Shown one piece after another: positions 1 through 11,931 of a DNA stretch of 12,809 bases (position 1 is its first letter; the number at the start of each line of letters is the position of its first letter). The DNA comes from Desulfobacteraceae bacterium (GTDB taxonomy: Bacteria > Desulfobacterota > Desulfobacteria > Desulfobacterales > ETH-SRB1), in NCBI GenBank assembly GCA_030638305.1, contig DAOWEW010000075.1:1-12809 (forward strand), written 5' to 3'. Under the pieces are notes generated by a model, which did no database searches, was not told where the DNA came from, and was given only the letters and a program-made list of their open reading frames with translations. A program made the position numbers and the translations under genes.

Positions 1-105
1 CACATCAATATATTCCACATCTTTACCGTTTTTTATATAGGCCTCACGAGCCGCTGTGGTAAAAGGTCAGGTATTCTTCCCAAAAATCAATACTTTTTCT
101 TCCAT
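1..105 (-). CDS. Selenocysteine-containing glutaredoxin-like protein (5' part, runs off left edge)
   Basis: Seen: a ribosome binding site (AGGAGAG, 8 nt spacing) precedes an ATG at 105-103. The frame reads MEEKVLIFGKNT, then TGA at 69-67, then PFTTAAREAYIKNG and KDVEYIDV to the window edge. Known: glutaredoxins and thioredoxin-fold relatives have a first beta strand, a CPxC/CPxT active site, a helix, and a second strand ending near EYIDV. The TGA sits exactly on the nucleophilic Cys, and the frame continues with a perfect glutaredoxin pattern after it. I therefore read it as selenocysteine, giving a UPFT active site (one redox residue, like monothiol glutaredoxins). Desulfobacterota are known to be rich in selenoproteins. 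Role inferred: thiol/selenol-dependent reduction of disulfides or glutathione/thiol adducts in the cytoplasm. Only 35 codons are visible. An automated caller would miss or truncate this gene at the UGA. Confidence 0.85.
28..69 (-). promoter_or_regulatory. Possible bacterial SECIS element at the UGA codon
   Basis: Immediately 3' of the UGA (69-67) the message can fold. UUUUA (64-60) can pair with UAAAA (35-31). CCAC (59-56) can pair with GUG-A-GG (47-42) with one bulged A. The apical loop is AGCGGCUC (55-48) with a G in its second position, as bacterial SECIS loops usually require. The stem has an internal asymmetry and was judged by eye, so the exact fold is uncertain. Its position inside the coding region just after UGA fits bacterial SelB-dependent recoding. 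Confidence 0.45.
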
Positions 106-140
106 GACTAATTCTCTCCTGAAAAACAAGTGTTACAATA

Positions 141-321
141 AGGGCTCGGTAAAAAATAACTTGGCATTTTTGCATACCGAATTCACCATCTCTTAAATAT
201 ATCTTCAAACACAAAAGTCCTCGAAATAGCTCGCTATTCCTGTGGCTTTGCTCAATCAGATCGATCAAATCTACGGCAAATTTGGGCGCAAATTCTACCA
301 AGTTATTTTTTACCGGGCCCT
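141..321. mobile_element. MITE-like element with 24-bp terminal inverted repeats
   Basis: The left end (141-164) begins AGGGCTCGGTAAAAAATAAC. The right end (298-321) is its reverse complement with a single mismatch (A/G) over 24 bp. The 181-bp interior is AT-rich and carries the near-palindrome GAAATAGCTCGCTATTCC at 223-240. It has no transposase. An 18-bp core identical to 223-240 recurs in inverse orientation at 6275-6292, and an end resembling the left terminus recurs at 11227. No convincing target-site duplication could be read. Folded as RNA it would form a long hairpin between the Lgt-like gene and the glutaredoxin gene, so it could also act as a terminator. Its right end supplies the TAG stop codon (322-320) of the Lgt-like gene. 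Confidence 0.75.
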
Positions 322-1372
322 AAATACGTTCTTTGATGACATGAAATGACAGCACGGCTTCGGTAACTTTGCTTTTTCCGGTGTGAAGAAAAATACCAAG
401 CCATAAAACCTGGAAAAAAATCATTATGGCCGGATGCCAGAGCGCCGTCATCCCCCGGATTATATCGCAGTTTGTCGCTACGGCATCCTTAAAAACAAAG
501 GTCAGACCAACAGCGTAAATAACCCCGATTGCGGCCATCATTTGATATTTTGTGATTTTGCCGCTTCCCCTGTAATCTGCCCTTAAAAACTCTGAAATTA
601 CACGCCAGATCTGAGTTGCCATGACAGTCAGCAAGAATGCCTCGGGCTGCTTGTCATTTAAAAACAGGGCAATCCCGACCAACCCGGTTAAACAGCATAT
701 CAGCGCTGTAAAGGCCGGGACAGGAACGATTCTTTTTCCGTCCAGCCCGTCCGCGTAGGAAATCTTTTTGGTTGCACCGTAATATACAAAGCAAAAACGC
801 TTCAGGAGCTTTTGGAAAAACGGCGTCAGGCCTGCAACAGGTTTGCCGTAACAACAGCCGAAACTGATGCAGGCCAGCCGGCCAACACCTTCGCCAAAAG
901 CATAAGCAATGCCGATGGCGGCCAGAACAGTCATCACTGGCAGATGTATCTCATTCCAGGGTTTGATAATATACCGGACTAAAAGCAACAGCCATGGAAT
1001 AAGCAAAAGACCGACAAAAAAAGCCCCGCCAACACTAAAGGTAAAGGTTTTATGTTCCACCCACCTTGCAATCAACCCGGATGCCGGCACGCAAATGGAA
1101 AAAACCATTGCTGTGACAAGAAAAATGATCGGGGTCTGGAGCCCCGCTGAAATCAGAAGGACAAAAAACAGAATCGCAGCAAAAACACAGGCATTGGCTA
1201 TTAACAGGCCGTAATAGGTAAAATTCACCCCCTGCCAGTTGCCGTCCGCCAGTTTGATCCGGGGAACTGCACCGAATATCTGCCATCGCTCCTGCGGCAG
1301 ATGCCTGAAGCTCCAGCAGAACAAAAGGCCTATCAGTCCTGTTAGGCATAGAATAAAAACAAAGTTTGCCAT
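320..1372 (-). CDS. Lgt-like (prolipoprotein diacylglyceryl transferase family) membrane protein
   Basis: This is a polytopic membrane protein of about 350 residues with roughly seven hydrophobic segments. Family marks seen: a YYG motif near the second membrane segment; SVGG near 114-116 where Lgt has a His-Gly-Gly; then VGRLACISFGCCYGKP near 163-178 in place of the Lgt signature GRxGNFxN; and RVISEFLR near 257-264, matching the conserved late Arg-Glu region. The GCCYGK variant is known from Lgt-family paralogs distinct from housekeeping Lgt. Canonical Lgt moves diacylglycerol from phosphatidylglycerol to a lipobox cysteine. Here the essential-looking His and Asn positions are changed, so the substrate may differ. 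I chose the ATG at 1372 because GAGGGG lies 11 nt upstream; the GTG at 1384 touches that site. It is the last gene of the operon, 34 bp after the decarboxylase. The TAG stop comes from the adjoining MITE-like element, so the C-terminus may have been altered by that insertion. Confidence 0.75.
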   Translation of the reverse strand: MANFVFILCLTGLIGLLFCWSFRHLPQERWQIFGAVPRIKLADGNWQGVNFTYYGLLIANACVFAAILFFVLLISAGLQTPIIFLVTAMVFSICVPASGLIARWVEHKTFTFSVGGAFFVGLLLIPWLLLLVRYIIKPWNEIHLPVMTVLAAIGIAYAFGEGVGRLACISFGCCYGKPVAGLTPFFQKLLKRFCFVYYGATKKISYADGLDGKRIVPVPAFTALICCLTGLVGIALFLNDKQPEAFLLTVMATQIWRVISEFLRADYRGSGKITKYQMMAAIGVIYAVGLTFVFKDAVATNCDIIRGMTALWHPAIMIFFQVLWLGIFLHTGKSKVTEAVLSFHVIKERI

Positions 1373-1394
1373 TGTTCTTTTCACCCCTCAAAAA

Positions 1395-1410: not shown

Positions 1411-2432
1411 CTACGTCGCGCCACGGACGAACGGACGAAGACTTCAGTCTCTATTAGAGGTTTCTGAAACCCGCTTACAAAACGGCTCTGCACCTCACGC
1501 CTATGCAGATTGGCCACAATATCCGCATCAAAAAAGATCCGGTTCTTCTGGAAAAGGAGCACATCAACCGAACTGCCGGGCAGATAAAGGCTCTTTGGCT
1601 GTCCCTTGACCAGTTGCATATGCGGTTTGACCGGCACAGGATCATCATATCGGCATTCGCTGTAGCACTGGGAAATACCGCCGATCATCAGGGCAACGAT
1701 TTCAATCATCGCCACAAGTCCGATACGGCTGCCTCCTTCGACATCGGTATTAATTACAGTAATCACGCGTTTGTTTCTGGAATAAGGAGTTACTTCGGAA
1801 ATGACCGCACACGGATTGCATGAATGGCAACAACCTGGAATTTCATAAATATCAGCCACCGTGCCCGTCACCGGCACGTGATTGTAGTGATACTTTTCAG
1901 GAGTCAGCCGGAAAACTGCAAAATCCCCGCCTTCAAACGCTTTGAGCCAGGCCTTCCGGTCTGCTCCAAGCAGGTCTTCGAAGCTGAAAAACTTCTCTTT
2001 GATAAAGAGGAGATTATCCCGGGCCAGGGAGCCGGCCAGCATTTTTGCATCTGCCGGCGATACAACGACAGCGTCATCTTCAGGCATGGGTCGGCAGTGC
2101 CAATACTTGATCTGCCGTTCGAATATTTTTCCGGCGGTGTTAAGCCTTGATACAGGCTCAACGCATTCGTTAAGATCAACCCCGAGTTCGCTCAACAGAT
2201 TTTGGCCTCCTGTCAACCTTGCGCCCAAGGGCAGATTGTAATTGATAAAAGCCAGTATTCCCGATATCCGTAACGAAGTCAGTGCCCGATACAAAACCGG
2301 CGATCTTTCCCGCACATCGGAGTAAATCATATTGATCAGACGGTCGCAGAAAAATCTTTCCGTGCGGACATCACCGGAGACACGCTCAATATACTGGTGG
2401 GACATTGTGCATGATATGCCGTAATTACTCAT
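1407..2432 (-). CDS. Phosphatidylserine decarboxylase-like proenzyme
   Basis: 341 residues. It belongs to the family that decarboxylates phosphatidylserine to phosphatidylethanolamine at the membrane using a self-made pyruvoyl group. Seen: an N-terminal QYIERVSGDVRTE segment; VVSPADAK (122-130) with the Asp of the processing triad; YHYNHVPVTG (181-190) with the His that would complete it; a hydrophobic MIEIVALMIGGIS region; then KGQPKSLYLPGSSVDVLLF with the self-cleavage motif LPGSS at 284-288. The usual LGST/GGST is replaced by GSS, and a Ser is still present at the cleavage position. The start at 2432 overlaps the upstream gene by 8 nt; an ATG at 2474 is possible but would overlap by 50 nt. 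The C-terminal tail (VFVRSSVARRR) reads into an interspersed repeat that contains the stop codon. The substrate could be another amino-phospholipid rather than phosphatidylserine. Confidence 0.85.
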   Translation of the reverse strand: MSNYGISCTMSHQYIERVSGDVRTERFFCDRLINMIYSDVRERSPVLYRALTSLRISGILAFINYNLPLGARLTGGQNLLSELGVDLNECVEPVSRLNTAGKIFERQIKYWHCRPMPEDDAVVVSPADAKMLAGSLARDNLLFIKEKFFSFEDLLGADRKAWLKAFEGGDFAVFRLTPEKYHYNHVPVTGTVADIYEIPGCCHSCNPCAVISEVTPYSRNKRVITVINTDVEGGSRIGLVAMIEIVALMIGGISQCYSECRYDDPVPVKPHMQLVKGQPKSLYLPGSSVDVLLFQKNRIFFDADIVANLHRREVQSRFVSGFQKPLIETEVFVRSSVARRR

Positions 2433-4848
2433 GATTTGCCTGGTCGCATTGCTGATTAAGCTGATAAAATACAAGCAGCATCAGGTGAATGAGCTGTTCC
2501 AGTAATTTTGATGACAATGTTTCGTTAAGAACCGCTTTTTCACTTTTAGCCAGAAAATCCGCAGCATTTCTGCCGTTTAGAATCCTCAACAAAGCCTTAT
2601 TGTAAACTCCTCCACGCCAGTTAGTCCAGGAATCAAGCTTTTTCAGTGCGCAGGCAAAAAGATCGAGTCCTTCCTGAATGTGCTTTTTCTTTAACACTTC
2701 ACGGTAATATTTTTCCGCAGCGAGGTTGAATTCGTCAGCGGTAAGCTGTGTGGAATGTTTTGCCGAAGCGCTGTCCAGAATTTTCCGGGTAAGACGACCG
2801 GCAGCAGAAAACTCTTCAGGCTCGTTTATACGCCGTTCAAGGTCGTTGAGCGTTTCTTCGAGATGCATCATTTTTACCAGATCTTTTGCATCCTCACGGA
2901 TAACACGCAAAAGAGCCCTGCGGTATTCGATGTTATGCACCCGCAAAAAACCGGCATAACGCCGGCTTCCTCTGATGTTCTGTGTTTGGCGCAAAATTTT
3001 TTCCATAAACTGATTTCCGGTTGATTTGTGCACAAAAAAAGTTGGTATGCCGATGGCGGCCCCGAAAAAAATCTGGCGGCGTTCACTCTCTACGGTTGGA
3101 TCATCGGGAATATGCGCATGGAAAACCTGCCGCTGAAAAATATATTTGTAAGCCAGAGCCGTTATCAGCAACTGCAGGTTTACGGCCTGGGCCATATCGT
3201 CCATAAACCTGTTAAAAAGGCTGTAATAACGTCCTTCAAAGCCGGAAAAACCAATAGTGTCGAAAACTCTTAATCGATACAGCATATACAGCGGCATATC
3301 CCGATGGAAAACACCCATGGAGGCAAGATCATCCTTAAGCTTTTGTTCACTGCCGGGCCGTCCGTCAATGGCCGGACTCTCGTCGGTACTCAGCAGGGCC
3401 ACAGGGTAGTTGATCAGCCTGAAATCACGCACATAATCACCTTTCAAACACAAAAAACGGCTGACAGCGCTATCAAGCGATTCAGGTCCAAACGGAGTCA
3501 TGGAATAGCCGAAAAACTTCATGCCGGCTTTTTTCTTCCACCTCCGCCAGATCATTCTCAGGTGGGTGTAATCGAGTTCATGTGGCAGAAACCCTAAAAC
3601 TTTCTCTGGATGAAAATCCTGAAAATCAAGACGGTAGGGAGCTGCTGAATAGGCGCCGACAAACAGCGGAAGAAAATGCTCGCAGATCTTGATCACGAGA
3701 TCACCGTAGTATTTCTCATCTGTTGCGGTAAATCCGGATTCAGGATTGCCAAGCAGGCGGGTCAGTTTGCGACTGCCCAGGCTGACGTGAATGCCGTTAT
3801 TTGCCAGGCTGATATTGGATGTATTCGGCAATACCACCAGATTATTTGTAATGATGCCGGCTTCCTTTAATTTAATCACTGCGTTGAGCTGGCTGCGAGA
3901 AAGAACCTCGTGGCATAATCCCATGTAACGGCGCTTAATCTCACCCTGATCCCATCCGGAAAGACATGGACTCATATATAGTTCCCTGTAAAAGGCATCA
4001 GGAATCAATTCGTTCAATTGCCTCTGGCGAACTGGCGGATGGGGCGCAAAATAGGTCTGAACCTGTTGGCCGCTGTCAAAAAGTCCAAATCGACGGTTTG
4101 CGTATTGGATTAGAAACTGGGACAAAAGAAATCGCAACGATGTTTCACCTGCAATCCCTTTCCCCATCTGATGATCGGGTGTCATTGGAACAGGGCAGAA
4201 TGAATGCGTCTCGGGCGAAGTATTATCGTTGAGAAAATGACCCATCATTTTCTCTCCGGCAGCCCTGATAAGGGGATCAATGTCCTTTTTGCCGATTGCA
4301 TTGGCCAGCGACAGTTTCAGCAAATAACTCACCGGTAATCTTAAATATTCAACCCCGCTGATTGTAAGGACAAACCGCTTTGCATCGCGCCGTAACCGGC
4401 TGTCAACCTTTCGTTTATCAGCCTGAATATCCCTTGCAAAAACAGCGTTGGCGTATTCGCATAAAATATGACGCGGCAGCCGTACCCAGCTATGCTCCCA
4501 CACCATGTCGGCATTGGCCAGATAGTCTTCAATATCCCTGACCAGCCTCCGTGGCGATTCTCCTGTTGCCGCGCGTTTGACGATATTTCGATAATAAGAG
4601 GATTGTTTGATTGCAATGGCCAGATCAACATCGTCTTTGCTTCCGCAAACTACGGTTTGCAATTCGGTTTCCGATCCTGCCGTCACGTCATCAGCAGAAA
4701 ACGGAAGTAATTCGATTAACGCTTCGCCTGAAGTCTGGGACATTCCCAAAAGACTCATGATTTTCAGCAGACCGGAAGGCCTGTCTGGCGCGTTCGTACG
4801 CTTTTGAACAGATTTGGAATAAACGATCGGCATGCGTATAGCAGTCAT
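2425..4848 (-). CDS. Large conserved-looking protein of unknown function (807 aa)
   Basis: I do not recognise the family. The frame is open for 807 codons and has the composition of a soluble or peripheral protein, rich in Arg, Lys and aromatic residues. There is no signal peptide and no clear transmembrane helix. Segments that look conserved by composition are the EYLRLPVSYLLKLSLANAIG stretch (about 168-187), the AAPYRLDFQDFHPEKVLGF and HELDYTH region near 404-430, and MPLYMLYRLRVFDTIGFSGF near 525-545. A charged, probably helical C-terminal third (about 650-807) ends in a Leu-rich stretch. I looked for acyltransferase HX4D, Walker, radical-SAM and glycosyltransferase motifs and found none. 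The start at 4848 lies 19 bp after the MBL-fold gene, and the stop overlaps the decarboxylase start, so translation is probably coupled. Its place between a hydrolase and two lipid-enzyme families suggests lipid or cell-envelope chemistry; that is inference only. Confidence 0.85.
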   Translation of the reverse strand: MTAIRMPIVYSKSVQKRTNAPDRPSGLLKIMSLLGMSQTSGEALIELLPFSADDVTAGSETELQTVVCGSKDDVDLAIAIKQSSYYRNIVKRAATGESPRRLVRDIEDYLANADMVWEHSWVRLPRHILCEYANAVFARDIQADKRKVDSRLRRDAKRFVLTISGVEYLRLPVSYLLKLSLANAIGKKDIDPLIRAAGEKMMGHFLNDNTSPETHSFCPVPMTPDHQMGKGIAGETSLRFLLSQFLIQYANRRFGLFDSGQQVQTYFAPHPPVRQRQLNELIPDAFYRELYMSPCLSGWDQGEIKRRYMGLCHEVLSRSQLNAVIKLKEAGIITNNLVVLPNTSNISLANNGIHVSLGSRKLTRLLGNPESGFTATDEKYYGDLVIKICEHFLPLFVGAYSAAPYRLDFQDFHPEKVLGFLPHELDYTHLRMIWRRWKKKAGMKFFGYSMTPFGPESLDSAVSRFLCLKGDYVRDFRLINYPVALLSTDESPAIDGRPGSEQKLKDDLASMGVFHRDMPLYMLYRLRVFDTIGFSGFEGRYYSLFNRFMDDMAQAVNLQLLITALAYKYIFQRQVFHAHIPDDPTVESERRQIFFGAAIGIPTFFVHKSTGNQFMEKILRQTQNIRGSRRYAGFLRVHNIEYRRALLRVIREDAKDLVKMMHLEETLNDLERRINEPEEFSAAGRLTRKILDSASAKHSTQLTADEFNLAAEKYYREVLKKKHIQEGLDLFACALKKLDSWTNWRGGVYNKALLRILNGRNAADFLAKSEKAVLNETLSSKLLEQLIHLMLLVFYQLNQQCDQANHE

Positions 4849-11721: not shown

Positions 11722-11931
<210 letters not shown>

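Follow-up and report, generated by a model that had tools for sequence, protein, structure and literature searches.

The closest described relatives of the gene considered here are the UXX-star selenoproteins, for which a 2026 review (PMC13188914) was the only source found in the literature searched. Table 1 of that review lists the NCBIfam model NF041114 as "Distant Grx-like protein 1 (UXX-star selenoprotein family 1)", with a UxxT active site and two selenocysteine (Sec) residues, and gives UxxC as the motif of selenoprotein glutaredoxins; in Geobacter sulfurreducens, according to a passage of PMC1794560, one of the selenoproteins is a glutaredoxin. Here, the comparison is extended to a stretch of 12,809 nucleotides from a Desulfobacteraceae bacterium (contig DAOWEW010000075.1, assembly GCA_030638305.1; hereafter the window), the left edge of which cuts through a gene of this kind. 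An earlier note, made from the sequence of the window alone, had presented the gene as an unrecognised selenoprotein, a claim that does not survive the existence of a dedicated model already listed in the review. Very probably, the window carries the 5' half of a gene of UXX-star family 1, which encodes a glutaredoxin-fold protein of ~75 residues with two Sec residues.

A UGA-containing glutaredoxin-like gene and its relatives

The gene lies on the minus strand, and its first 35 codons of ~75 occupy window positions 105 to 1. The translation reads MEEKVLIFGKNT-TGA-PFTTAAREAYIKNGKDVEYIDV, with the frame still open where the window ends; codon 35 is the last one inside, and the 3' half of the gene lies beyond the edge. 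A single in-frame TGA at 69..67 (feature 67..69, minus strand) forms codon 13 within a UPFT site, and gene-calling software to which every UGA is a stop will truncate the gene at codon 12. The ATG is preceded at a distance of 8 nt by a ribosome binding site, AGGAGAG (114..120, minus strand). With TGA translated as U, the 35-residue fragment matches Pfam PF00462 (Glutaredoxin) with an E-value of 8.3e-5 and 23.1 bits, against a gathering score of 22.9, and its best NCBIfam match is NF041114, with an E-value of 1.4e-10 and 41.2 bits over model positions 1-31 of 70. The UPFT site conforms to the UxxT active site of NF041114 and departs from that of a canonical CXXC dithiol glutaredoxin, given that Thr, not Cys, stands three residues after the nucleophile. 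The in-frame UGA and the ribosome binding site described in the earlier note are thus real, and both the frame and the glutaredoxin match continue past the codon.

A scan with the neighbouring LGT-like gene (window 320-1384) yielded two loci. L001 belongs to a Desulfobacteraceae metagenome-assembled genome (MAG) from Grevelingen (G001) and L002 to a Deltaproteobacteria MAG labelled EthSRB1 (G002); their LGT-like proteins are 87 and 90% identical, respectively, in the best segment. Each genome contains one NF041114 match over the cut-off, with the same TGA at the same place. The encoded proteins share 34 and 32 of the window's 35 residues and, at full length, score 97.9 and 100.5 bits against NF041114 over all 70 positions. 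When read through, both end in ...KVPIIVDRGxVxIGFNGKA-TGA-GV-stop, with a second TGA near the C-terminus. Since the full genes of the relatives carry this second UGA, the earlier note saw half of what in these relatives is a double selenoprotein, and we infer that the gene in the window runs on in the same way. Across the other 34 codons, the window gene differs from L121 in a single synonymous and a single non-synonymous substitution and from L092 in three and one, respectively. Full-length L092 scores 41.8 bits against PF00462. L048, a close relative of the window gene (31/35), is a Cys form that retains the C-terminal Sec.

The selA, selB, selC and selD genes, proposed earlier as a check on the prediction, were all found over cut-off in G001 (SelA 615.5 bits, SelB 382.5, SelD 373.8, tRNA-Sec 74.2), and in G002 only selC and selD were (tRNA-Sec 77.3, SelD 380.8 bits). 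Among 14 control genomes, SelA was over cut-off in one, SelB in two, SelD in two and tRNA-Sec in five. The SelD genes of both close relatives (L112 and L113) each have one in-frame TGA, and SelD is probably itself a selenoprotein there.

The family was surveyed in 148 loci from 146 genomes, the best-scoring among the matches listed, with 88 loci in a first set and 60 in a later one; two listed rows over the cut-off (G215 and G162) and 50 genomes with sub-cut-off matches only lie outside this collection. NF041114 was over its cut-off in 152 of 291 genomes from the order of G001 and in none of the 14 control genomes, seven of which gave sub-cut-off matches. Site 1, the position of the window's UGA, is UGA in 81/88 loci of the first set (the two close relatives included) and in 54/60 of the later set, 135/148 in sum, and Cys in the remaining 13 (7/88 and 6/60). 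Given that the same TGA is present in the two relatives and that TGA or Cys occupies its place across the family, the window TGA is not a chance occurrence. The C-terminal UGA is present in every locus of both sets (88/88 and 60/60), followed before the stop by two residues in 84/88 and 60/60 loci and by three in 4/88. The fourth residue of site 1 is Thr in 88/88 and 59/60 loci, with Ser in L171. The loci that combine Cys at site 1 with a C-terminal Sec are L022, L032, L045, L048, L063, L088, L106, L125, L159, L160, L167, L168 and L170. The 50 VIA and 50 Foldseek rows listed are, by title, thioredoxin-fold proteins such as glutaredoxins, NrdH, glutathione transferases, MglA/SspA and Spx.

These results bear on two further claims of the earlier note. 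The Cys-containing homologues that it called for exist, and its view that selenocysteine serves as the nucleophile of a glutaredoxin-like protein is supported by the Sec machinery of a close relative and by the hairpin described below. Loss of the frame to the left of the window, which it named as a refutation, is seen in neither of the two close relatives. Its reading of the Thr as the mark of an unusual selenol-only glutaredoxin is not supported, with Thr in 147/148 loci and a second, C-terminal Sec in 148/148. The UGA of the window gene almost certainly encodes Sec and is presumably read as such in the source organism.

Hairpins associated with the two UGA codons

Three alignments were used: A1, with 79 of the 88 loci (L025, L034, L037, L040, L063, L078, L082, L089 and L090, mostly near-duplicates, were omitted); A2, with the window and 79 of the 81 Sec loci (L025 and L082 omitted); and A3, with 65 of the 88 loci. 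The selenocysteine insertion sequence (SECIS)-type hairpin at the second site (SECIS 2) lies 3' of the C-terminal UGA and, in most loci, past the true stop. Its folding gave a mean z of -2.12, with 70/88 loci below -1, as compared with mean values of -0.09, -0.19 and -0.18 for three control stretches (15/81, 18/88 and 18/81 below -1). RNAalifold applied to 79 loci returned six pairs with compensatory changes in every one, and the number of double-change cells was 92 versus 28.1 by shuffling, a count reached in 0/500 shuffles.

The hairpin at the first site (SECIS 1) lies within the coding sequence, over the A-R-E-A codons, and corresponds in the window to GGCU-CGUGA-GGCC (40..52, minus strand), with four pairs, a U.G closing pair and, 18 nt past the UGA, the apical loop CGUGA. 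In the 74 Sec genes coding for AREA, the third bases of the Ala and Glu codons combine as T-A (57), C-G (15) or T-G (2) and in no other way. Across 79 loci and the window, 95.3% of cells in the four-pair helix are paired, versus 86.4% after shuffling, and the covariation score is 0.387 versus 0.206; neither value was reached in 500 shuffles. The closing pair is present in 80/81 Sec genes versus 1/7 Cys genes (P 9e-8) and, in the later set, in 51/54 versus 2/6 (P 0.001), where five of the six Cys genes are also without the Arg over the loop. This loop Arg is encoded by CGT in 64/81 Sec genes, as compared with 27 of the 224 remaining Arg codons that lie between the two sites in the 88 genes. A search of the window with Rfam gave no match over the gathering score.

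Possible roles of the two selenols

With a C-terminal Sec in all 148 loci, the enzyme most probably has two selenols, and this residue is probably its second redox group. Each UGA is very probably recoded by means of a separate SECIS-type hairpin, which for the first UGA lies within the coding sequence, over the AREA codons, and for the second falls in the 3' untranslated region in most loci. In the mechanism proposed, Sec13 of the U-P-F-T site would attack the substrate, and the second Sec, predicted past the window edge in a C-terminal U-x-x-stop tail, would resolve the intermediate as a Se-Se or Se-S bond and so stand in for the second cysteine that CXXC glutaredoxins have and this protein lacks. 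That attack by Sec13 is followed by resolution through the C-terminal Sec in place of that cysteine we regard as evenly poised between right and wrong. Slightly short of that stands the fuller proposal of a self-contained diselenide/selenenylsulfide relay, with two independently recoded UGA codons, each with its own SECIS, and the C-terminal Sec as indispensable resolver; this last role is suggested because 148/148 loci keep the residue, whereas Cys has taken the place of the N-terminal Sec in 13/148, even in L048.

Several results weigh against the interpretation as a UXX-star family 1 gene with two SECIS-directed Sec residues. The window fragment, with only 35 codons in the window, scores 41.2 bits against a whole-protein cut-off of 72 for NF041114, and the loci were picked by their score against that same model, so that the invariance of the C-terminal Sec may be overstated. 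In G002, a 2.5-Mb MAG that is possibly incomplete, SelA was unmatched and SelB remained sub-cut-off at 110.6 bits. The SECIS counts ignore relatedness among loci. The case for SECIS 1 is built on covariation because its free-energy z-scores are not clearly better than those of the controls (mean z -0.27, with 20/81 below -1, as compared with 15 to 18 in controls), and only two of its pairs change on both sides, a number that 368/500 shuffles reach. The CGT codon of the loop Arg is no mark of Sec by itself because it is kept in 6/7 Cys genes; likewise, Sec (80/81) and Cys genes (6/7) are not separated by the loop G rule. In the window itself the hairpin has an energy of -3.3 kcal/mol (-4.7 for 42 nt), and in a longer stretch a competing fold beats it; its loop, stem and spacing fit the bacterial SECIS (bSECIS) model as given in PMC13188914, but its energy lies outside the limit of that model, which asks for a minimum free energy no higher than -7.5 kcal/mol. 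The passages of the review on the NF041114 family contain neither biochemistry nor an established function.

Among the other explanations, the one that survives best is that the two selenols serve as ligands for a soft metal or metalloid and not as a thiol-disulfide relay. An invariant C-terminal Sec beside a site 1 that tolerates Cys would suit such a role, which we nevertheless consider unlikely in view of the glutaredoxin fold and of the conservation, in the 65 sequences of A3, of the Pro and Thr that follow site 1 and of a V-P segment of cis-Pro type. The commonest neighbours of the gene in the 88-locus set also point away from metal binding: a TIGR00730 protein 27-377 nt downstream in 40/82 loci with room, and PtsI upstream on the opposite strand in 44/84. 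Less probable again, and in our judgment doubtful, is a one-selenol glutaredoxin with Thr at the resolving place, in which Sec13 alone would act via glutathione. Monothiol glutaredoxins exist as a class, and the U-P-F/Y/H-T motif with its near-invariant Thr (147/148) agrees with such a protein; a C-terminal Sec that is more constant than the first (148/148 versus 135/148) and has its own SECIS does not. That the UGA is a true stop, followed by a decaying or unused remnant of a frame, is highly improbable: the gene is indeed cut by the window edge and Sec machinery was seen in the genomes of relatives only, but the few codon changes relative to L121 and L092, the restriction of the codon to TGA or Cys across the family and the covariation of the SECIS hairpins all speak against it.

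The polymorphism between Sec and Cys at site 1, set against a constant C-terminal Sec, and a coding SECIS with a closing pair that is mostly lost alongside Sec together constitute a natural experiment on the role of each selenol and on the way in which a bacterium inserts two Sec residues into a very short chain.

Genomic surroundings and comparison with known families

The TIGR00730 protein and PtsI are the most frequent neighbours, and the recurrence of TIGR00730 and of PtsI/HPr names no function. The TIGR00730 protein of L048 scores 150.1 bits, the PtsI of L056 has phosphoenolpyruvate-utilising enzyme domains, and HPr occurs in 29/84 loci (PF00381 in that of L066). The gene that precedes the selenoprotein gene in the window's kin L091, L092 and L048 encodes a group 1 glycosyl transferase (PF00534 in that of L048); in the window, a palindromic repeat and then the LGT-like gene lie upstream instead. 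In L001 and L002, the DNA beyond the LGT-like gene differs from that of the window, and the selenoprotein gene does not adjoin it.

The palindromic repeat (window 139-325, ~185 bp) separates the selenoprotein gene from the LGT-like gene and has dispersed copies in relatives (L022:720-903, 89%; L092:7797-7981, 85%). Given that the similarity of the window to L001 and L002 ends near its right edge (window 319), the repeat may be a mobile element resembling a miniature inverted-repeat transposable element, or it may mark a site of rearrangement or a join in the assembly. At a loose Rfam threshold, window 1-700 gave three plant microRNA models, located on this repeat, and one small nucleolar RNA; all were below gathering scores and were taken as chance matches. 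Elsewhere in the window, positions 11722-11931 (plus strand) encode an EPSP synthase-family C-terminal fragment (PF00275 positions 366-411 of 417, 37.3 bits) that resembles MurA and may be what remains of a gene or part of a split one. An 807-residue frame at 2425-4848 (minus strand), for which neither Pfam nor NCBIfam gave a match at the thresholds applied, overlaps a phosphatidylserine decarboxylase-like frame (1407-2474) by 50 bases.

Among described families, NF041114 shares the UxxT site with the window gene, whose relatives exceed its cut-off across the whole model and have two Sec residues, and no difference was found. Four full-length proteins tested also score 74.6 to 77.9 bits against NF041212 (Uxx-star subfamily, cut-off 66). 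The same four are well under the cut-offs of NF041211 and NF047338, families 2 and 3 of the same glutaredoxin-like group, and family 2 was not among the NCBIfam matches listed for the window fragment. With the selenoprotein glutaredoxins (e.g. Kim et al. 2011, cGrx1 structure 7c12), the window gene has in common the glutaredoxin fold and an active-site Sec. It differs from them in its Thr as fourth residue, and the relatives of the window gene end the chain with a second Sec where solved glutaredoxins continue. Structure 7c12 is presumably that of the Clostridium oremlandii protein. A Sec close to the chain end is also found in mammalian thioredoxin reductase, an unrelated enzyme that offers an analogy only. 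The family to which the window gene is assigned is thus already named, and the main correction to the earlier note is the second, more conserved Sec, carried by the relatives beyond the point at which the window ends.
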